From Halobacteriovorax marinus SJ (GTDB taxonomy: Bacteria > Bdellovibrionota > Bacteriovoracia > Bacteriovoracales > Bacteriovoracaceae): a stretch of DNA of 64,000 nt. Below the pieces are notes generated by a model. It did not search any database and was not told where the DNA came from. It saw only the letters and a list, made by a program, of their open reading frames with translations. The stretch spans positions 1,116,001 to 1,180,000 of the forward strand of contig NC_016620.1 in the NCBI RefSeq assembly GCF_000210915.2, read 5' to 3'. Within the stretch, counting starts at the first letter, position 1; each line of letters begins with the position of its first letter. The translations under genes were made by a program, and so were the position numbers. This document shows positions 49,419 to 59,777 of the stretch, in pieces.

Positions 49419-50108
49419 TTATTTTCTTTGCTCAGAAGAAAGACTTTGTATGATTTCTTGGTAAGCATTCTTGCCATTCAATGAATCTGTGATGATATCA
49501 GTGTATTTCTTAAGTAGTTTTTGGTCTTCTTTTTTTACTCTTTGAGTTTCTGTTTGAACGGATTTAATTGAAGCGAGTGTATCTTCAATCATCGAACTCT
49601 TTACTAGACCTGCAAGAAATGACTTTGGTTTTACAAAGCTGTGGTATCCCATGAGTGTCTTGCCTTTGTACTGTTTAAAGCTCGCTGATCCATTAACAGA
49701 CTCCGCACTCTCTGAAGTAACCATCCACCAACTAGCTTCGAATTCATTATCATTTACTTTTTTAAAGTCACTGGCATGGGTGTAGTGCGAATTGGACAGT
49801 GGCCATGGTAGCTCGAGTTCATATTTTGTATAAACTTGTGTTGGACTCATATGCTTAACAGGATCTGACTTTAAGAGATTTGGTAAATAGTTCTTTTGAT
49901 GGTCAAGTGCTAGGAAGATGGCAAGTGACTCAAGTGGTGTGGCATCTATGAGTTGGTAGATATGCAACTTTGGCCACGGACTAGCATTTACATTTTCTTT
50001 ATAGATAACTTGCTTTCCAGCTTCTACTTTTGGGAGGTCTTCATTTTTTATGCTGTCCTGCGCAAATGTGAGGTTGATAAAAAGGCATAAAGTGAGAAAT
50101 ATTTTCAT
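49419..50108 (-). CDS. Exported START/SRPBCC-domain protein
   Basis: The 229-residue protein has a signal peptide ending LTFAQ. The following domain (KLHIYQLIDATPLESLAIFLALDHQKNYLPNLLKSD, VYTKYELELPWPLSNSHYTH, SASFKQYKGKTLMGYHSFVKPKSF) matches the helix-grip fold of START-like lipid-binding proteins. The C-terminal 60 residues are helical and charged. It may carry a lipid in the periplasm. It is close to the sphingolipid genes, but the link is only positional. Confidence 0.8.
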   Translation of the reverse strand: MKIFLTLCLFINLTFAQDSIKNEDLPKVEAGKQVIYKENVNASPWPKLHIYQLIDATPLESLAIFLALDHQKNYLPNLLKSDPVKHMSPTQVYTKYELELPWPLSNSHYTHASDFKKVNDNEFEASWWMVTSESAESVNGSASFKQYKGKTLMGYHSFVKPKSFLAGLVKSSMIEDTLASIKSVQTETQRVKKEDQKLLKKYTDIITDSLNGKNAYQEIIQSLSSEQRK

Positions 50109-50228
50109 TATTTTCTTCCAATAAGTAGATTAATTTTGAACATCTACATTTCAAAGTCTGAACAATTTTACAAGCTGAATATTTTCTGGCAATTAAAATA
50201 TACATATTCCAATAGATTAAGGTCACCT

Positions 50229-50843
50229 ATGAAGAAGTACGATTCTATACGAATTTTTAAAAATCCTGTGCTTGAGGCTTGTACTCACGTTCATCCTATA
50301 ATTCCTCTCATCCTTTGGACTCCTGTAGCAATTTACTGGGGTGTTCATGGTCAGAGCTCGTATAATCTCTCATGGAGCGAAATGCTTCTATGGTACTTTA
50401 TTGGACTCTTAGTTTGGACTTTTACAGAGTATATTCTTCACCGTTACATGTTTCACTTTCCTGGTAAGAGTGCTCTGGCCAAGAGATTTGTCTTTCTCTT
50501 TCATGGTCTTCACCACGATGATCCAAACGATCCAACAAGACTTGTAATGCCACCAGTTCCCGCCATAATCATAATGGCCATGCTATATGGACTTTTCTCT
50601 CTAGTAGTCCCTGGAAGATACTTAGAAGTATTTATGTCGGCATTTGTAATTGGTTACCTTTGCTACGATTATATTCACTACGCCACTCACCACTTTAAAA
50701 TGACAGGGAAGGTGGGAAGATATCTTAAGAAGTTTCACCTTCAACACCACTTTAGACATGAGAAAGCAAAGTACGGTGTAAGTTCTCCATTATGGGATAT
50801 TATCTTTAGAACAATGACTGGTCCAAAAGAAGAAGGTCATTAG
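50229..50843 (+). CDS. Fatty acid 2-hydroxylase-like membrane di-iron enzyme
   Basis: This 204-residue membrane protein belongs to the fatty acid hydroxylase superfamily. His clusters are EYILHRYMFHF, FHGLHHDDPNDP, YDYIHYATHH and FHLQHHFRHE, closely following the Scs7/FA2H pattern that 2-hydroxylates sphingolipid acyl chains. Three or four hydrophobic segments place the di-iron site at the cytoplasmic face. I choose the ATG with AAGG six bases upstream; the open frame extends 31 codons earlier without family similarity. The PAP2 gene follows after two bases, facing a serine palmitoyltransferase operon. Confidence 0.92.
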   Translation: MKKYDSIRIFKNPVLEACTHVHPIIPLILWTPVAIYWGVHGQSSYNLSWSEMLLWYFIGLLVWTFTEYILHRYMFHFPGKSALAKRFVFLFHGLHHDDPNDPTRLVMPPVPAIIIMAMLYGLFSLVVPGRYLEVFMSAFVIGYLCYDYIHYATHHFKMTGKVGRYLKKFHLQHHFRHEKAKYGVSSPLWDIIFRTMTGPKEEGH

Positions 50844-50845
50844 AA

Positions 50846-51655
50846 ATGATTAGAAAGTCTATTGCGCTTGTGTGCGCAATCTTTATTTGCAATCAAGGTT
50901 TTGCTAGCACAGCTATCGGTGAGTCAGTCTGGAAGGATCTGAGGACCTCTGTGAATTGGCTAATCGATGGATCTGTAGAGCAGTTTAGAACAAAGAATAA
51001 TCTCTACTATCTAGGAGCGGGAATTCCGGCGACATGGTATGCCTTTGAAAAGGACGAAGACAATCTTCAAAGTGCAAGAAAGAAGGGGAAGGCTCCTAGG
51101 CATATTCGCCTTGCTGGAGACTTTGGTGTTGTTCTCGGGTTTCCTGTGCTTCAATCATCATTTTATCTCTACGGGAGAAAATATAAGAACGAGAGGGCCA
51201 TGCAATTTGCGATGGAGTATCTCTCTTCAATGTACTTGGCCATGGCAGAGTCTGGTGTTTTGAGCTTTATTCAAGTTCATGAAAGACCTGATAAAACGAA
51301 CCTAAGCAAGTGGGAAACTGGCTTTAGAGGGAATTCTTCTTTTCCTAGCGGCCACGTTATTCCATACTATGGTCTCTTCTTTAAAACTCTTCAATTCTAT
51401 GGACCATATTGGGCAATTGCGCCGGGGGTTCTTTCGGTGTGGGCCGCTCAGCAAAGAGTGAGATCTGCGAGACACTATACCTCTGACGTTGTCGGATCAT
51501 TCTTCTTAATGGCCTTCGCCTCTGAGGGAGTTCGAAAAGTTGCAAAGTACAAAGATAATCACCCTTTCTATAAGTGGGCATTTGAGCACGAAGCAGCGCT
51601 TTCATTGATTAGGCATGAGGACGCCTACGGACCTGCGGTGGTTTGGAACTTTTAG
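50846..51655 (+). CDS. Exported PAP2-family phosphatase
   Basis: A signal peptide or N-terminal anchor precedes a PAP2 domain. The active site is seen as HERPDK, then SSFPSGHVIPYY, then QRVRSARHYTSDVVGS, giving the two catalytic His and the Asp. The Lys normally seven residues before Arg-Pro in the first motif is Ser here. The family removes phosphate from lipid phosphates such as phosphatidate, undecaprenyl or sphingoid phosphates. It follows the hydroxylase gene by two bases and its end overlaps the convergent reductase gene by four. Confidence 0.9.
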   Translation: MIRKSIALVCAIFICNQGFASTAIGESVWKDLRTSVNWLIDGSVEQFRTKNNLYYLGAGIPATWYAFEKDEDNLQSARKKGKAPRHIRLAGDFGVVLGFPVLQSSFYLYGRKYKNERAMQFAMEYLSSMYLAMAESGVLSFIQVHERPDKTNLSKWETGFRGNSSFPSGHVIPYYGLFFKTLQFYGPYWAIAPGVLSVWAAQQRVRSARHYTSDVVGSFFLMAFASEGVRKVAKYKDNHPFYKWAFEHEAALSLIRHEDAYGPAVVWNF

Positions 51656-52650
51656 TTAATCCAATTTCTTTCTTTATAGTCTTTCGCTGTAGCAGCAATC
51701 GTCTTATCAAGATCCCACTCATAACTTTGAGAGAGAGTCTCTGTGGACTTAGTACTTTGGCAACACCAAGCACTTGCGAGTAGTTCATTGGCCTTATCAG
51801 GAGTAAGGCGAATATCTATTTTCATAAACTTTGAGAAGAAGCCAATGAGTGTGGCCACAACCCTAATAAGCGTAGATGGGATTGGTAGGTTAATCAGTCT
51901 TTTCTTTCCAAGATTTCTTTGAATACTCTTGTAGAGCTCTTGTGTTGTAATGATCTGTGGATGAGCACTAAAGAAAATTTCAGGGCCTTCGAAATCTTTT
52001 TCCACTGCTGACTTTATAGTTTGAATAAGATCGTAAACACATACGAAACTATATTCATTATTCACACCGTCCATTCCTGCAGTCACGACGAAGGAGTCGT
52101 TAATCATTTTAAAAATATCTAAGACTGCTGGATCCCTTGGCCCTATAACCATTGGTGGACGTATGATTGATACACTCCAGTTCTCTGGACAAAGCTCTTT
52201 GGTAAACCTCTCGGCCAACTTCTTGGATTTTCCATAATCACTAACTGGATTTGGTATATCTACTTCGCTAAGAGGCTCTCCTCGTTTAGAGGGTCCACAG
52301 CTGGCAAGTGATGAGATAAGTACAAACTTTAATTGACCGTATTTTTCTTTTAAATCGAGAATGAGTCTTTGAGTGGCAATAGAATTGATCTTATAGAAGT
52401 CTTCACTATTCATTGAGTGAACAATTCCAGCAGTGTGAATGACTGCATCGAGTTTCTCAGGTAGCTCAGAAATCCACTCGTTTTGTTTATTGCTCGCAAG
52501 AGAGCCAAGAACATGAGTTCCAGGAGTATTGAATTCCTTTGCTTTCTTTGCGTTTCGAACCAAAGAGAAGACATTGTGTCCGCTCTTTTCTAGGAGTTCA
52601 CTAAGATGAGAGCCGACGAATCCTGTTGCACCTGTTATAAGAATATTCAT
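51652..52650 (-). CDS. NAD-dependent epimerase/reductase, candidate CerR
   Basis: The 332-residue extended SDR protein has the nucleotide motif ITGATGFVGSHL, the catalytic Ser in ISSLASCGPS and YGKSK. Bacterial ceramide synthesis in Caulobacter uses a protein of this class (CerR) to reduce the 3-keto group. Its place directly after serine palmitoyltransferase and a GNAT protein supports the same role. Sequence alone would also allow a sugar epimerase or 3-beta-hydroxysteroid dehydrogenase-like enzyme. Its start overlaps the stop of the GNAT gene. Confidence 0.88.
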   Translation of the reverse strand: MNILITGATGFVGSHLSELLEKSGHNVFSLVRNAKKAKEFNTPGTHVLGSLASNKQNEWISELPEKLDAVIHTAGIVHSMNSEDFYKINSIATQRLILDLKEKYGQLKFVLISSLASCGPSKRGEPLSEVDIPNPVSDYGKSKKLAERFTKELCPENWSVSIIRPPMVIGPRDPAVLDIFKMINDSFVVTAGMDGVNNEYSFVCVYDLIQTIKSAVEKDFEGPEIFFSAHPQIITTQELYKSIQRNLGKKRLINLPIPSTLIRVVATLIGFFSKFMKIDIRLTPDKANELLASAWCCQSTKSTETLSQSYEWDLDKTIAATAKDYKERNWIN

Positions 52651-53774
52651 TATAAATTCTTAGAGAAGATTCTATAGGTCTTATATGGCTTCGCTCCCAT
52701 TCTTAAAAGGGGCTTATTCATATTGAGGTTATCTTCTAGAATCCAGCTCATTTCGACTTCGTTATAACCAGCATCTAAGCCTAGTTTCTTTGTCTTAGTG
52801 TAGAGAATGGACTCTAGTCCTAACTTTCTATACTTCGATTTAACTCCCATAGTGAGTACTCTCATTCTGGTCATATATTTCTTAGCATTTAGTAATTTGA
52901 AAATACCAAAAGGAAGAAGCTTTCCATTAGGAACTTGCTTAAAGGCTTGATTGATATCTGGAAGGGCCACGATAAATCCAGCAGGCTCTCCAGCGACTTC
53001 ACAGATAAGAATGAGGTTAGGGTCGAGAATGGACTTCATATCTTTACATGTATGTTCCCATTCTTCTCGTAGCATTGGAATGAAGCCCCAATTCTTTTCC
53101 CAGGCATCATTGTAGATATCCCAGAGAATTTCAGTTTCATTCTTCCAGTCTTTCATATTTACTTTTCTGTAAGTTATTTTATTTGATTTCTCCGCCCTCG
53201 CTGAAATCTTCTCGATAATTTCTGGCATTTGAAAGTTTAAATCTAGTTGGTAGGCGAGGAGGTCTTTACTCTTTGAGTATCCAAGAGACTCTGTGAGCTT
53301 TTGATGGTACGGATTATTGTAGGTCATCATAATTTGAGGGTCGTCGCTAAAACCATCAATGAGTGTTCCTACTGTATAGTTGGTAGAAGGGTTTGCTGGC
53401 CCTCTAATTTCACTCTTACCTTGCGCCTTGATATATTCTTCCGCAGCTTGAAATAAGCTCTTAAAAACTTCTTCATCCTCAATAGATTCGAAGAATCCGT
53501 AGAAACCGATATTTTCATCGTGGAATTCATTGTGCTTGTGATTTATGATGGCCTGTATTCTTCCGACATCTTTACCATCTTTAACCGCCATCCATGATTT
53601 TATTTCAGCGGTTTTATAAAATGGATGTTTAGGGCTGAATTGTTCGTTGAGTGAGAGTTTGAGTTGAGGGACCCAGACTGGATCCCCTTTATATAATTTC
53701 CATTGAAGGTCTATAAAACGTTTTCTATCCTTTTTATTTCTTAGGACATCTACTTCTTCAATTTGAACACTCAT
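52650..53774 (-). CDS. GNAT-fold acyltransferase, candidate bacterial ceramide synthase
   Basis: The 374-residue protein has a C-terminal GNAT domain (LILICEVAGEPAGFIVALPDI, MRVLTMGVKSKYRKLGLESIL) and an N-terminal half with RGPANPSTNYTVGTLIDGF and MMTYNNPYHQKLTESLGYSKSKDLLAY. Proteins of this type sit next to bacterial serine palmitoyltransferases, and one in Caulobacter (bCerS) N-acylates the long-chain base. It lies eight bases downstream of the palmitoyltransferase gene. The enzymatic role is inferred from context and the shared architecture. Confidence 0.88.
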   Translation of the reverse strand: MSVQIEEVDVLRNKKDRKRFIDLQWKLYKGDPVWVPQLKLSLNEQFSPKHPFYKTAEIKSWMAVKDGKDVGRIQAIINHKHNEFHDENIGFYGFFESIEDEEVFKSLFQAAEEYIKAQGKSEIRGPANPSTNYTVGTLIDGFSDDPQIMMTYNNPYHQKLTESLGYSKSKDLLAYQLDLNFQMPEIIEKISARAEKSNKITYRKVNMKDWKNETEILWDIYNDAWEKNWGFIPMLREEWEHTCKDMKSILDPNLILICEVAGEPAGFIVALPDINQAFKQVPNGKLLPFGIFKLLNAKKYMTRMRVLTMGVKSKYRKLGLESILYTKTKKLGLDAGYNEVEMSWILEDNLNMNKPLLRMGAKPYKTYRIFSKNL

Positions 53775-53782
53775 TCTCTTTC

Positions 53783-54988
53783 CTAGTGGTGTATTCCCGG
53801 TATATCAAATTCTTTCTTGGCCATTTTAAAGACCTCAAGTACTTTTGTTAGCTCTTCGATTGAATGGCTTGCCATATAACTTGTTCTAATTAATGCTTCA
53901 CCTTGTGGTACAGCTGGAGCAAGTACAGGAGTTGCAAATACTCCCATATCTCCTAGGAACTTAGTTACTTGCATGGCCTTGAGATCATCGCCGATAAATA
54001 CTGGGATGATTGGCGTTTCTGATTCATATGTGTAGAAACCGATTTCTTTAAATCCGTTTCTAATAAATTCGACATTCTTCCATAGTCTTGGGTGAATAGT
54101 ATCGTCAGACATGATGACATCTACACAAGCACCAACTGTGGCAACCGCTGATGGAGGCATAGATGCTGAGAACATAAATGATCTCGCTGTATGTTTAACG
54201 TAGTCGATACTTTCTTTTGTTCCTGAAAGTACTCCACCAATTGAAGCAAAAGACTTAGAGAATGTTCCCATGTTGAAGTCAACTTTCTCAGTTACTCCAA
54301 AATGGTTCATTGTTCCACGACCTTTTTCTCCCATAACTCCTATACCGTGAGCGTCGTCAACGTAAACGATTGCTCCGTACTTGTCGGCAAGCTCAATAAC
54401 TTTATCTAACTTAAGAATCTTTCCTGTCATTGAGAAAACACCGTCAGCAACAATCACAACATTCTTAAAACGATTTACGTTTGCTGCCAATTGCTCTTCA
54501 AGAGACTCCATATCGTTGTGCTTATATTTAAATGTAGCACCTAGTGCGAGTCTTGAAGCATCGATAAGTGAAGCGTGGTTTTCAGAATCAAAGATCATGC
54601 AATCTCTAGGACCACAAATCGCTGATAGTGCACCAAGGTTTGTTTGCATACCTGTTGAAAAACAAAGCGCAGCTTCATGTCCTAAGTAATTCGCTAACTT
54701 CTCTTCTAGCTCTTCGTGAATACTTAAGTTACCATTTAGAAATCTTGAACCAGTACAACCTGTACCATACTTTTCTATCGCCTTAATGGAAGCTTCAACC
54801 ACGTGAGGGTGATGAGTTAATCCTAAGTAGTTATTTGAGCCAATCATGATTTGATCTTTATTATCAAATGTAATTACTGAACCTTCTGAGGCCTCAATTG
54901 CTCTAAAGAACGGATAGAGGTTATTAGATTTCAGTAGATTTGCTTTTTCGAGGATTTTCGAGTTACTTCCAACAAATTTAGACGTCAT
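53783..54988 (-). CDS. spt: Serine palmitoyltransferase-like PLP enzyme
   Basis: This alpha-oxoamine synthase (401 residues) condenses an amino acid with an acyl-CoA. Family blocks are NNYLGLTHHP, GTGCTGSRFLNGN, FDSENHASLIDASRLA, VDDAHGIGVMG and the PLP Lys in GTFSKSFASIGG. LYPFFRAIEASEG near the N-terminus and the LAPAVPQGEALIRTSYMASHS end are typical of bacterial serine palmitoyltransferases rather than KBL or BioF. The GNAT and reductase genes that follow fit this. The leader contains a CTAG-flanked hairpin (55040-55061). Confidence 0.92.
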   Translation of the reverse strand: MTSKFVGSNSKILEKANLLKSNNLYPFFRAIEASEGSVITFDNKDQIMIGSNNYLGLTHHPHVVEASIKAIEKYGTGCTGSRFLNGNLSIHEELEEKLANYLGHEAALCFSTGMQTNLGALSAICGPRDCMIFDSENHASLIDASRLALGATFKYKHNDMESLEEQLAANVNRFKNVVIVADGVFSMTGKILKLDKVIELADKYGAIVYVDDAHGIGVMGEKGRGTMNHFGVTEKVDFNMGTFSKSFASIGGVLSGTKESIDYVKHTARSFMFSASMPPSAVATVGACVDVIMSDDTIHPRLWKNVEFIRNGFKEIGFYTYESETPIIPVFIGDDLKAMQVTKFLGDMGVFATPVLAPAVPQGEALIRTSYMASHSIEELTKVLEVFKMAKKEFDIPGIHH

Positions 54989-55192: not shown

Positions 55193-56176
55193 GTGAAAAA
55201 TAAATTAATCCTCCTAACTTCTATTGCTCTTTTCCTTGGCGGTGCCTTTGGCCTTTATTGGACTAAGTCTGGGCGTGGAGTTCAGCAGCACAAAGTCGTT
55301 AAGAAATTTGACCCCCTTCTCGCCAATGAAAGTGATGTCTATTCTAGAGTTGAAAGTGCACATGGAGATAGGATTTCTTCACTTCTTCGCGAATCTAAAA
55401 AAAAGAAACCGGCCATTGCCACTTGGATATTTGAAAATTTTGATAAAGAGAAGACTATAGTTCAAGAAGCGATGTTAATTGCACTTGGAAATTATAGAAC
55501 TCAGGAGGCACTTGATTTCTTGATCTCTAAAGTTGTGAAGCAAGATAATGAGAATCTCTCGATTTATGCTCTTAAAGGCCTCTCCCTACATGAAGATGAA
55601 AAGAGAGTTGCCGCCTTAAAGCAAGTTGAGGTGAGTGGGAGAAGCGATTACTTACAAATTAATTATCACTTCACACTATTTAAAACGAAGAGCTTTTTTA
55701 GAGATAAAAAGGAAGATCTAAATTGGTTAGTCGATAAAGGAATGAAGCTAGGGGACTCTAAAGAGCTTGTGGCCATTGTTATGGGACTATCGCAATTCGT
55801 TCCAAATTTTGAGAAACTCCACGATCTACTTAAGCATATTCTCTTTCACTCTAAGAGTGAGCTTCTAATTAATAGGGCGGTTATTCATCTCTCTGTCTAC
55901 AGTTCTGGTTGGCTTAAGATACAAACGAAGAAAGTACTTAGCTCAAATAATAGAATCTTATTAAGAGAGTTTCTCTCTCGCTCAGGAGCATTTTGTCCTT
56001 TAAATATTTGGAAGGCCTTTGATGAGTACGCCATTAGGTACGACAAATTGGGTGCAGTAGAAATGGCATCAAGGGTGAATATGGTTAAAGCGAAAGAGTT
56101 AGGTCAGAGGGTAGGTGTAGATTCTGCTAAATTAGAAGGCATTTTAAAGGAAGAAAATACGACACTTTGTTACTAA
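55193..56176 (+). CDS. Exported or membrane-anchored HEAT-like repeat protein
   Basis: The 327-residue product has an N-terminal hydrophobic helix (LILLTSIALFLGGAFGLYW). An alpha-helical repeat region follows, with IVQEAMLIALGNYRTQEALDFLISKVV and ENLSIYALKGLSLHEDEKRVAALKQV resembling HEAT or PBS-lyase repeats. Such scaffolds bind other proteins. The only start I find is a GTG directly touching AAGGAGG, which is closer than the ribosome normally accepts. It overlaps the convergent PilZ gene by four bases. Confidence 0.7.
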   Translation: MKNKLILLTSIALFLGGAFGLYWTKSGRGVQQHKVVKKFDPLLANESDVYSRVESAHGDRISSLLRESKKKKPAIATWIFENFDKEKTIVQEAMLIALGNYRTQEALDFLISKVVKQDNENLSIYALKGLSLHEDEKRVAALKQVEVSGRSDYLQINYHFTLFKTKSFFRDKKEDLNWLVDKGMKLGDSKELVAIVMGLSQFVPNFEKLHDLLKHILFHSKSELLINRAVIHLSVYSSGWLKIQTKKVLSSNNRILLREFLSRSGAFCPLNIWKAFDEYAIRYDKLGAVEMASRVNMVKAKELGQRVGVDSAKLEGILKEENTTLCY

Positions 56177-56922
56177 GCTTTTAGTTTGCCTTCTTTCATT
56201 TTCTTTCTAATTTCCTCTGCTCTAGCTTCACCATTTATTGATTTGAATAGATCTTCTTCTGTATTCTTTGGAACGTCAATGAAAGCAATTCCCACTTTAA
56301 AAACTCCAGTAGGCTTTTCTTCCGTGTCTTTTACTGGCCAAGTTTTGGCAATCTTTGCTTGAGGAATTTCAAATTTGTCCACGTTTAGTCTTAGTAGACA
56401 GTCTTTGAAAATTTCGCCCTCTGGATATTTAACTAAATCTGTTTCATCTATAGAAAATGAAGTTCCACCAGCTGAAATATCGTGAGCATCATAAACTGTT
56501 TCATTGATTTTAAATTGAATTTTTACAAAGTTATTTGCTGATAGTCTGTAATTAGATCTCTGCTGAGATCTATAGACCTCTTTTGTTATATGAATGAAGT
56601 AGTCTTTCTCTTCTGGGTCGTAGCGAAGGATACCATAAGTAAAATATTGGAACTTATTATAGTTAACTTTTAGAAAAATCTCTTTATCAGTGAGCTTTGA
56701 CTTTGAAAGCATAGAAAGAAATCCACCCTTAGATTTTAGGGTTAACTTTTGGGCCTCATTGAAAGTAGTAAGGTCATATTCCTCTACTTCTTTGTCAGAT
56801 TGACCTTGGGACCAGATATAGCAAACGAGTTTCTCTTTACTGGCAGAGCTGAATACTTCTTTAACTTCGTCTAACTCAACGATCGAAAAGTAATGTTTTT
56901 TATTTGCGTCTTTTTTGCTCAT
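56173..56922 (-). CDS. PilZ-domain c-di-GMP-binding protein
   Basis: The 249-residue protein has a YcgR-N-like beta domain and a C-terminal PilZ domain. The c-di-GMP motif RxxxR lies in SQQRSNYRLSANNF, and the second motif in DAHDISAGGTSFSI. The protein should bind c-di-GMP and adjust motility, adhesion or secretion. It is divergent from pepN, with inverted repeats in the shared region. Confidence 0.88.
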   Translation of the reverse strand: MSKKDANKKHYFSIVELDEVKEVFSSASKEKLVCYIWSQGQSDKEVEEYDLTTFNEAQKLTLKSKGGFLSMLSKSKLTDKEIFLKVNYNKFQYFTYGILRYDPEEKDYFIHITKEVYRSQQRSNYRLSANNFVKIQFKINETVYDAHDISAGGTSFSIDETDLVKYPEGEIFKDCLLRLNVDKFEIPQAKIAKTWPVKDTEEKPTGVFKVGIAFIDVPKNTEEDLFKSINGEARAEEIRKKMKEGKLKA

Positions 56923-56990
56923 AGCTAAAATACTGTTTTTATATCCTTTATAATATTTTAAACAAAATCTTAATTTTTATAAAGTAGAGT

Positions 56991-57020
56991 GTAACTAGGG
57001 AATAATTTTCAACTAGTTAC
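56991..57020. promoter_or_regulatory. Inverted repeat GTAACTAG-N14-CTAGTTAC
   Basis: Perfect 8-bp arms lie between the divergent PilZ and pepN genes. The position suggests a regulator site, though a hairpin is also possible. Confidence 0.35.
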
Positions 57021-57050
57021 TTGTTTTATTGCTATATTTTTATCCGTTCT

Positions 57051-57089
57051 CCCCATGACAAATGCCAAAAATGGGGTATATTGATCCCC
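57051..57089 (+). promoter_or_regulatory. Two mutually exclusive stems in the pepN leader
   Basis: CCCCAT (57051-57056) can pair with ATGGGG (57071-57076), and the same GGGG can pair with CCCC (57086-57089). The arrangement could switch between two folds, but the second stem has only four pairs. Confidence 0.3.
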
Positions 57090-57119
57090 TCAATGAAAAT
57101 TCTATAAAAAGGACTATAT

Positions 57120-59777
57120 ATGAAGGACGCATCACCCCAAACTATCTTTCTTAAAGACTACACTCCATCTGACTATTTGATCTCTAAAATTCATCTAACT
57201 TTTGATTTAGATGATACAAATACTCAGGTAATTTCTAAGATGAATGTTTCAGCTAATTACGATTTTAAATCACTAAAGAGAGACCTCGTTTTAAATGGTG
57301 AAGAGCTTACATTGAACAAAATCTTTGTTGATGGTGTAGAGCTTGGAGCTGATCAATATGAGTTGATTGAAGATGGTCTCGTCATTAAAGAAGTAAAAGA
57401 AGAGTTTATTCTTGAGATTCATAATACGATTAATCCTCTGGCCAATAAAGCGCTAGACGGACTTTATAAGTCTGGATCAATTTTTTGTACTCAAAATGAA
57501 CCTGAAGGTTTTAGAAGAATTACTTACTTTATAGATAGACCAGATATTATGGCCGTTTATACAACTAAGGTCATTGCTGATAAGGCAAAGTATCCAGTTC
57601 TCTTATCAAACGGAAATCCAATCGACTCTGGTGACCTAGAGGGTGGTAAGCACTTTGTTGAGTGGTTAGATCCATTTGTAAAGCCATCTTATCTCTACGC
57701 TCTTGTCGCTGGAGACTTAGGACTAGTTCAAGATGAATTTACAACTATGAGTGGAAGAAAAATCGATCTTAGAATCTACGTTGATAAGGGTAATGAGTCC
57801 AAATGTGATCATGCCATGGAGAGTTTAAAGAATTCTATGCGTTGGGATGAAGAAGTTTATGGACGTGAATATGATCTCGATATCTATATGATTGTTGCGG
57901 TAGATGCATTTAATATGGGAGCGATGGAAAATAAGGGATTAAATATCTTCAACTCTGCCTACGTTCTTGCAGATCCAAAAACAGCAACGGATTCAAATTT
58001 CTTTGGTGTGGAAGGCGTTATTGGACATGAGTACTTTCACAATTGGACAGGTAATAGAATAACTTGTAGAGATTGGTTTCAGTTAACTCTTAAAGAGGGA
58101 CTCACAGTTTTTAGAGATCAAGAGTTCTCTTCTGATATGAATTCTAGAGTTGTAAATAGAATCGCAAATATTAAGACTCTTAAATCTAGACAATTTGTAG
58201 AAGACGCAGGACCAACAGCTCACCCAATTAAGCCTAGTAGCTATATTGAAATTAATAATTTCTACACAATGACAATTTATGAGAAAGGCTCTGAAGTTAT
58301 TCGTATGATTCATACTCTCTTAGGTGCTGATGGATTCAGAAAAGGGACAGATAAGTACTTTGAACTCTTTGATGGACAAGCAGTAACGACAGAGGACTTC
58401 ATTCATGCAATGAGTGTGGCCAATGACAATTACGACTTTACTCAATTTAAGAATTGGTATCATCAAGCGGGAACACCTATGCTTGATATCAAAACTTCTT
58501 ATAACGAAGCGGCAAAAGAGTACTCAATTACAGTAACTCAAAGCTGTAAGCCAACTCCTGGTCAAGATGAGAAGAAACCTTATCATATGCCATTTGGTCT
58601 TGGGTTAGTAAGTAAAGATGGAGCGGACTTTCCTCTTAAATTAAAAGAAGTCTTCACGGCGCAACCACAAATTGAAGAAAATATTCTGCACTTAACTCAA
58701 GAGAGCGAGACGTTCACATTTACTGGGATTGATCATGAGCCGGTACCTTCATTCAATAGAGGTTTCAGTGCGCCAGTAAACTTAAAGTCCGATAGACCAC
58801 TAAGTGATTTTGTTTTTCTTATGGCCAATGATAACGATGAGTATAATCGATATGAATCGGCTCAGGCCCTTGCTATTGAATTGATGTCATGTCTTGTTAA
58901 AGATGCGGCCAATGGAGTCCCGCTTAAACTTGATGCTCCTTTTATCAAAGCTTATGGAGAGCTAATAAAAGATGAATCTTTAGATAATTCTTTCAAGGCC
59001 CTTATCTTAGATATTCCATCAGAGGGAATTCTACATCAGGCACAAGATGTTGTAGATTTTGAGAATACATTCAAGGTTCGCAAATTTGTTAAAGAGACTC
59101 TTGCAAAGACATATGAGCAAGAGCTTAGTGCTATCTACGATAGTCTCAATGTAGATAAGGAATACTCACTTTCTCCTGAAGCAATGGGTGAGAGAGAACT
59201 GAAGAATCTAGTTCTTGGTTTATTATTAAGCACAGGAAACTCAAAATATGATGACCTTGCTTATGAGCAATTTGTAAAAGCAACAAATATGACTGACGAA
59301 TTCGCAGCACTAACTATGATTATTCATAGTGACTCTAAATACGCAGATGAAGTTATTGAAAAGTTCTTCATTAAGTGGAAGCATGAGACTTTAGTTATGC
59401 AAAAGTGGTTAACCGCTCAAGCTAGTGCAAGAGGTGAGAAAACTCTTGGAAGAGTGAAAGAGTTACTGAGTAATGAAGTGTATGACAAGTCTGTTCCAAA
59501 CCTTGTTAGATCTTTGATTGGAACTTTTACGGCAAACTATACAGAGTTCCACAATACTTCAGGTGTTGGTTATGAGTTTATTACAAATCAAATTATTGAT
59601 ATTGATAAATTAAATCCACAGATGGCCTCAAGACTTGCTGGAAGCTTTAAAGATTACAAACGTCTTCCAAGTGACTTGAAAGCACTAGTAAAGACATCTT
59701 TAGAGAGAATACTTGCAGAGAAGGACATCTCTAGAAATGTCTATGAAATCGTATCTAAAACCCACGCGGATAGCTAG
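57120..59777 (+). CDS. pepN: Aminopeptidase N
   Basis: This M1-family zinc metalloprotease removes N-terminal residues from peptides in the cytoplasm. The exopeptidase motif GAMEN is at 267-271, and zinc ligands His303 and His307 with Glu326 lie in HEYFHNWTGNRITCRDWFQLTLKEGLT. The 885 residues and the C-terminal helical bowl match E. coli PepN. AAAGGA lies before the ATG. It would help to use peptides gained from prey. Confidence 0.96.
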   Translation: MKDASPQTIFLKDYTPSDYLISKIHLTFDLDDTNTQVISKMNVSANYDFKSLKRDLVLNGEELTLNKIFVDGVELGADQYELIEDGLVIKEVKEEFILEIHNTINPLANKALDGLYKSGSIFCTQNEPEGFRRITYFIDRPDIMAVYTTKVIADKAKYPVLLSNGNPIDSGDLEGGKHFVEWLDPFVKPSYLYALVAGDLGLVQDEFTTMSGRKIDLRIYVDKGNESKCDHAMESLKNSMRWDEEVYGREYDLDIYMIVAVDAFNMGAMENKGLNIFNSAYVLADPKTATDSNFFGVEGVIGHEYFHNWTGNRITCRDWFQLTLKEGLTVFRDQEFSSDMNSRVVNRIANIKTLKSRQFVEDAGPTAHPIKPSSYIEINNFYTMTIYEKGSEVIRMIHTLLGADGFRKGTDKYFELFDGQAVTTEDFIHAMSVANDNYDFTQFKNWYHQAGTPMLDIKTSYNEAAKEYSITVTQSCKPTPGQDEKKPYHMPFGLGLVSKDGADFPLKLKEVFTAQPQIEENILHLTQESETFTFTGIDHEPVPSFNRGFSAPVNLKSDRPLSDFVFLMANDNDEYNRYESAQALAIELMSCLVKDAANGVPLKLDAPFIKAYGELIKDESLDNSFKALILDIPSEGILHQAQDVVDFENTFKVRKFVKETLAKTYEQELSAIYDSLNVDKEYSLSPEAMGERELKNLVLGLLLSTGNSKYDDLAYEQFVKATNMTDEFAALTMIIHSDSKYADEVIEKFFIKWKHETLVMQKWLTAQASARGEKTLGRVKELLSNEVYDKSVPNLVRSLIGTFTANYTEFHNTSGVGYEFITNQIIDIDKLNPQMASRLAGSFKDYKRLPSDLKALVKTSLERILAEKDISRNVYEIVSKTHADS

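Follow-up and report, generated by a model that had tools for sequence, protein, structure and literature searches.

A probable hydroxyceramide locus in Halobacteriovorax marinus SJ with adjoining PAP2 and START-fold genes

Results

Organisation of the locus

The window analysed here is a stretch of 64,000 nucleotides of the predatory marine bacterium Halobacteriovorax marinus SJ (NC_016620.1, positions 1,116,001 to 1,180,000), whose genome comprises 3.44 Mb in two contigs, and it carries a group of genes for the probable synthesis of ceramide, a lipid of membranes that is familiar chiefly from animals and plants. A trio on the minus strand (51652-54988) opens with the putative serine palmitoyltransferase gene, Spt (53783-54988; 401 aa, Pfam Aminotran_1_2), which is followed by the gene for bCerS, a GNAT-type bacterial ceramide synthase (52650-53774; 374 aa, Acetyltransf_1), and by that for CerR, a putative NAD-dependent ceramide (or 3-keto-sphinganine) reductase of the short-chain dehydrogenase/reductase (SDR) type (51652-52650; 332 aa, Epimerase). 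Spt and bCerS are separated by 8 bases, and bCerS and CerR overlap by 1 base. Facing the trio on the plus strand are the genes for a fatty acid 2-hydroxylase of the Scs7/FA2H type (50229-50843; 204 aa, FA_hydroxylase, PF04116) and, 2 bases further on, for a lipid phosphatase (or phosphotransferase) of the PAP2 superfamily (50846-51655; 269 aa, PF01569), which converges with CerR in such a way that the last codons overlap by 4 bases. The mechanical open reading frame of the hydroxylase begins with TTG at 50136, and its homologues favour the ATG at 50229. A scan for promoters and terminators gave matches no more numerous than in shuffled sequence. These five genes and their families, the minus-strand gaps of eight bases or less and the facing pair had been described in a first-pass annotation made from the sequence alone, with which the open reading frames and Pfam agree. 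That description overlooked a sixth gene, 49419-50108 on the minus strand, which diverges from the hydroxylase with 120 bases between the two starts and encodes, according to a predicted model, a START-fold protein that is probably secreted and is a candidate periplasmic lipid carrier. The gene unit is thus larger than first described, and the START gene probably belongs to the ceramide locus.

Identity of the ceramide-forming trio

By sequence, the pyridoxal phosphate (PLP) enzyme of the locus falls in the serine palmitoyltransferase (SPT) clade. Its best NCBIfam model is NF047600, serine palmitoyltransferase, at 482 bits, followed by glycine C-acetyltransferase at 388 bits and BioF at 375 bits, and its closest PDB sequences are the SPT of S. 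multivorum (372 bits) and then KBL (262). In a tree of 38 proteins, whose outgroup consists of three sequences only (E. coli KBL and BioF and a Thermus enzyme), the window protein lies inside a clade of 35 members with support 100/99; this clade includes the SPTs of S. multivorum, Sphingomonas (a reference almost identical to crystal structure 2JG2), Roseomonas and E. coli B together with Spt proteins from ceramide clusters of several phyla, and the three outgroup enzymes fall outside it. The PLP lysine motif GTFSKS is kept, and Spt is the sole match to the alpha-oxoamine synthases in the genome at an E value of 0.001.

The acyltransferase bCerS is 37% identical to E. coli YghO over 100% of its length, and it is through YghO, listed alongside Caulobacter CC_1154 as its counterpart in PMC9386255, that the link to the Caulobacter protein runs. 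Identity to homologues in Sphingomonas, Roseomonas, Rubrobacter and Diaphorobacter is 34-38%, the spt-cluster homologues of Sphingomonas and Rubrobacter standing at 35% and 38%. Over genomes of many phyla, the 80 best bCerS loci included 59 close to a Spt homologue and 44 close to a CerR homologue.

CerR keeps the Rossmann motif GATGFVG and the motif YGKSK. In a tree whose bootstrap values are not settled and whose deep branches are weak it belongs to a clade of 26 ceramide-cluster reductases with support 97/99, including those of Sphingomonas, E. coli B and Roseomonas, and stands apart from 19 epimerase-family proteins of its own genome and from E. coli GalE and HldD. Ranked by phmmer score, every ceramide-cluster reductase apart from the E. 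coli B and Roseomonas ones stands above the best epimerase of CerR's own genome. CerR is present in 61 genomes of the class, nearly all of which also have Spt. CerR has no signal-like N terminus; the Caulobacter protein is reported to be periplasmic (PMC11087976), but since no transmembrane segment was predicted in that protein either, we do not regard this as a clear difference. The first-pass annotation had read the PLP enzyme as Spt, the SDR as CerR-like and the trio as the Caulobacter-type set of Spt, GNAT-type bCerS and CerR, all of which is borne out at the level of sequence. The two sequence results that it had named as refuting, best matches of the PLP enzyme to KBL or BioF and of the SDR to sugar epimerases, were looked for and did not appear.

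The fatty acid 2-hydroxylase

The only significant PDB matches of the hydroxylase are the yeast Scs7 chains 4zr1 and 4zr0 (E 3e-29), as its first description as Scs7-like had suggested. Like Scs7 and FA2H it carries an RLVMPP motif, and ten histidines (71, 76, 92, 95, 96, 150, 154, 170, 173 and 174) are invariant across 19 homologues and align with what we take to be the metal ligands of Scs7. It differs from the yeast and animal enzymes in its length of 204 aa and in having no cytochrome b5 domain. On these sequence grounds it is an Scs7/FA2H-like protein, from which we infer that it would act at the 2-position of the N-acyl chain.

Several lines of evidence tie the hydroxylase to ceramide. 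Spt is present in 53 of the 56 genomes with the hydroxylase, the 3 exceptions being incomplete assemblies, and the hydroxylase lies within 5.6 kb of bCerS in 46 of 54 cases, the remainder being on other contigs. In one rearranged locus (G020) the hydroxylase gene runs in the same direction as CerR, with a 4-base overlap between the two, and in Chitinophagaceae it is also found near ceramide trios. In Roseomonas, a gene annotated as sterol desaturase family overlaps bCerS, and its product is only 26% identical to the hydroxylase.

Conservation across the class

In the class, of which 129 genomes were covered, 63 genomes have both Spt and bCerS, and the two are apart in 5. For this and the other co-occurrence counts (hydroxylase, START and PAP2), presence was called with score cut-offs of our own choosing from hand-transcribed lists; Fisher p values for such co-occurrence overstate independence, since the genomes within the class are related. 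Synteny was assessed in 26 loci outside the genus that have Spt and bCerS. CerR is kept in 23 of these, the hydroxylase in 18, PAP2 in 17 and START in 16; the hydroxylase faces the trio in 17 of the 18 loci that keep it, so that the facing arrangement noted in the window recurs and is not due to chance, and START adjoins the hydroxylase or PAP2 in 16 of the 26. TyrS, GltX, Hpt and HEAT, which are also neighbours, persist in only 0-2 of the 26 loci, which argues that the conserved block is not merely a product of slow rearrangement.

On the other flank, most members of the class have next to Spt a PilZ-like gene, recognised from its motif by eye and without a Pfam match, and the gene for the aminopeptidase PepN (window 56173-59777), two neighbours for which no role in lipids is known. 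Some relatives have genes lying between PAP2 and CerR; these were considered as head-group genes and rejected, for they vary by lineage (histidine kinases and others, by eye). The one exception (L046:5120-5782) has a weak match to the ceramidase family PF05875, below the cut-off. In another relative (L199:4298-7895, genome G127) Spt is followed directly by CerR, bCerS lies elsewhere and a DTW-domain gene adjoins PAP2.

The PAP2 and START-fold proteins

PF01569 matched all 23 PAP2 homologues, which keep PSGH and HxxxD; where the first motif usually has a lysine, they have an invariant serine instead. Weak scores link 18 of the 23 also to Pfam PAP2_3 and 5 of the 23 to PAP2_C, families that include inositolphosphoceramide (IPC) and sphingomyelin synthases. 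A comparison with PDB sequences gave no match. The predicted model (mean predicted local distance difference test, pLDDT, 86.9) fits best B. subtilis PgpB (Z 15.8, 181 residues, 3.2 Å), then LpxE (Z 14.7) and then the IPC synthases (Z 12.1).

The START gene product has no Pfam match. Its AlphaFold2 model (pLDDT 92.8) has the helix-grip START fold and superimposes on the Xanthomonas START protein 3qsz with Z 18.6 (160 residues, 2.1 Å) and on CERT with bound ceramide with Z about 16.6 (178 residues, 3.3 Å), bearing in mind that the PDB contains a disproportionate number of CERT entries and that polyketide cyclases score equally high. The predicted START fold is thus well supported, and the fold does not fix the ligand. 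With these START lipid-transfer proteins, Xanthomonas 3QSZ and human CERT, the window protein has the fold in common, whereas identity is 12-17% and it is a single-domain protein. The N terminus has a signal-peptide-like stretch, MKIFLTLCLFINLTFA, and to the eye the N termini of its homologues likewise resemble signal peptides, so the protein is probably secreted. START and PAP2 share 39 genomes and occur apart in 7, and each is almost confined to genomes with Spt, the exceptions being incomplete or having a divergent Spt.

Discussion

Proposed pathway

Taking together family membership, phylogeny and genome context, on which the roles of Spt, bCerS, CerR and the hydroxylase are based, we consider it very likely that the locus serves to make a ceramide with a 2-hydroxylated acyl chain. 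Spt would condense serine with a fatty acyl thioester to give 3-keto-sphinganine, bCerS would perform the N-acylation and CerR would reduce the ketone, the order of these last two steps being disputed in the literature and left undecided here. The Scs7-like di-metal hydroxylase would then introduce the 2-hydroxyl group onto the N-acyl chain, and the hydroxyceramide would be made at the inner membrane. The (hydroxy)ceramide, or a phosphorylated derivative, may be what PAP2 and START handle in the periplasm, with START carrying the lipid toward the outer membrane; such periplasmic processing and carriage is a tentative extension of the pathway, which we hold to be possible and somewhat short of probable. 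That the six genes form a synthesis-and-export unit, in which a secreted START protein, as a bacterial counterpart of CERT, ferries the (hydroxy)ceramide after its processing by PAP2, we put forward as a doubtful, though concrete, proposal. A lipid transporter for bacterial sphingolipids has not been identified (PMC11087976), and if the proposal were true START would supply the type that is lacking, being a definite candidate for the step that moves bacterial ceramide toward the outer membrane. For this class of predatory bacteria the locus would supply the genes of a route to hydroxylated sphingolipids, one that uses a eukaryotic Scs7/FA2H-type hydroxylase in place of the DesA type of Caulobacter.

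Alternative explanations

A number of observations weigh against parts of this pathway, and the profile scores of the trio are among them: the 482 bits of Spt lie under the curated cut-off of NF047600, which is 640, and both Spt and CerR are under the cut-offs of all NCBIfam equivalogs. All the proteins belong to large superfamilies, and it could be argued from the scores to glycine C-acetyltransferase and BioF that the locus holds a KBL of threonine breakdown or a BioF of biotin synthesis, a sugar epimerase and an unrelated GNAT acetyltransferase, with no link to sphingolipids. We judge this highly improbable, as the SPT model leads, both trees speak against it and the trio is common to spt clusters elsewhere. 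The assignment of the PLP enzyme to KBL or BioF was accordingly rejected on the best model and on a clade that excludes both, and that of the SDR to the sugar epimerases on its grouping with ceramide-cluster reductases, away from the epimerases of its own genome. The sequence does leave the amino acid substrate unfixed, and 1-deoxyceramides have been linked, in a proposal concerning the Black Sea, to bacteria with Spt-like enzymes (PMC11334938). Use of alanine or glycine by the trio would give such lipids, which have no C1 hydroxyl, so that PAP2 would be unrelated; this seems to us improbable, given that the relative B. stolpii has a characterised SPT and a sphingoid base whose C1 bears a head group (PMC6148460).

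The evidence is more evenly divided over PAP2 and START. The hydroxylase has independent support, and for these two proteins there is little beyond adjacency and co-occurrence. PepN (21/26) and the PilZ-like gene (18/26), on the opposite side, show the same degree of conservation; this makes adjacency weaker evidence for PAP2 and START, as it could partly reflect general synteny. In two genomes (G063 and G073) the START-PAP2 pair lies away from the trio, and weak START homologues (about 25-33% identical) occur in other contexts in genomes without Spt. In fold, the PAP2 model lies closer to phosphatases than to ceramide transferases, and the fit does not discriminate the substrate. The two genes might therefore adjoin the trio by ancestral gene order only, PAP2 being a general PgpB- or LpxE-like phosphatase and START serving another lipid, an explanation to which we allow a little less than an even chance: both genes are nearly absent where there is no Spt, and TyrS, GltX, Hpt and HEAT were lost from nearly all of the 26 loci. 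PAP2 might instead be a head-group transferase resembling Aur1 or sphingomyelin synthase, which would use a glycerophospholipid as the donor of a phospho-head group for hydroxyceramide. The matches of its homologues to PAP2_3 and PAP2_C, the Z of 12.1 to IPC synthases and a PAP2_3 gene placed after the hydroxylase in Taibaiella are in its favour; the weakness of those Pfam scores, the better fit of PgpB and LpxE and the lack of profile similarity to the Taibaiella PAP2_3 protein (a comparison with a single sequence on one side) make it rather unlikely.

Comparison with known ceramide systems

The trio is of a known kind, and the new part is the wider unit with its eukaryote-type hydroxylase and probably secreted START protein. 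Our reference clusters were those of Sphingomonas, Roseomonas and E. coli B, the statements on Caulobacter resting on later open papers. Caulobacter crescentus (CC_1162, CC_1154, CC_1164) and E. coli B (spt, yghO, epi) have homologous clustered genes for Spt, GNAT acyltransferase and SDR reductase, in an order that differs from that of the window. The SPT of B. stolpii belongs to a Bacteroidetes/delta group separate from the Rhodobacteria, in which spt is always accompanied by AcpR and AasR (PMC9386255). Caulobacter has a dedicated AcpR and AasR, whereas the window locus has neither: no full-length counterpart of AasR turned up genome-wide, the best match having 26% identity over 97 aa, and there is no acyl carrier protein open reading frame in the locus, AcpR not having been sought genome-wide. 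Hydroxylation in Caulobacter is done by the DesA-type enzyme CC_0202 (PMC11324152), which is of a different family from the window hydroxylase.

A cluster with the same order, Spt-bCerS-CerR on one strand, is found in Rubrobacter radiotolerans, but without hydroxylase or PAP2 and with a lipoteichoic acid (LTA) synthase and an SRPBCC protein downstream; this trio (L072:4707-8074) sits on an actinobacterial plasmid. The Chitinophagaceae Taibaiella soli and Ferruginibacter have Spt-bCerS-CerR and a hydroxylase 40% identical to that of the window. In Taibaiella soli (L150:7706-18746) the trio is followed by the additional genes for myo-inositol-1-phosphate synthase, PgpA and a CDP-alcohol transferase and then by the hydroxylase and PAP2_3, the last being at most superfamily-level kin of the window PAP2, and the whole looks like a cluster for hydroxylated inositol-phosphoceramide. 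We found no Halobacteriovorax paper on lipid and ceramide, and the class-wide six-gene arrangement is undescribed in the papers searched, most subscription journals being outside the search.

The head group

The first-pass annotation had called the cluster probably complete, and this holds for the ceramide backbone and the acyl hydroxylation, but no head-group enzyme was identified. It had also drawn an analogy with the sphingophosphonolipids of B. stolpii, which are reported to have hydroxylated acyl chains. Neither this genome nor four others of the genus have a phosphoenolpyruvate (PEP) mutase, so that a phosphonate head group cannot be assumed here, and the PEP mutase route was rejected for this organism. 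The genome encodes three CDP-alcohol transferases, one PgsA-like, one PssA-like and one unassigned.

In other genera, an operon absent from the genus of the window combines genes for a CDP-alcohol phosphotransferase, a LysE-type transporter and a PEP mutase-nucleotidyltransferase fusion (L186:66-3105; also L181-L185, L187 and L188). The CDP-alcohol phosphotransferase gene was present in all 8 loci examined and all three genes in most, and Spt accompanies the fusion in almost every genome that has it. This operon is a candidate source of the phosphonosphingolipid head group in B. stolpii-like bacteria.

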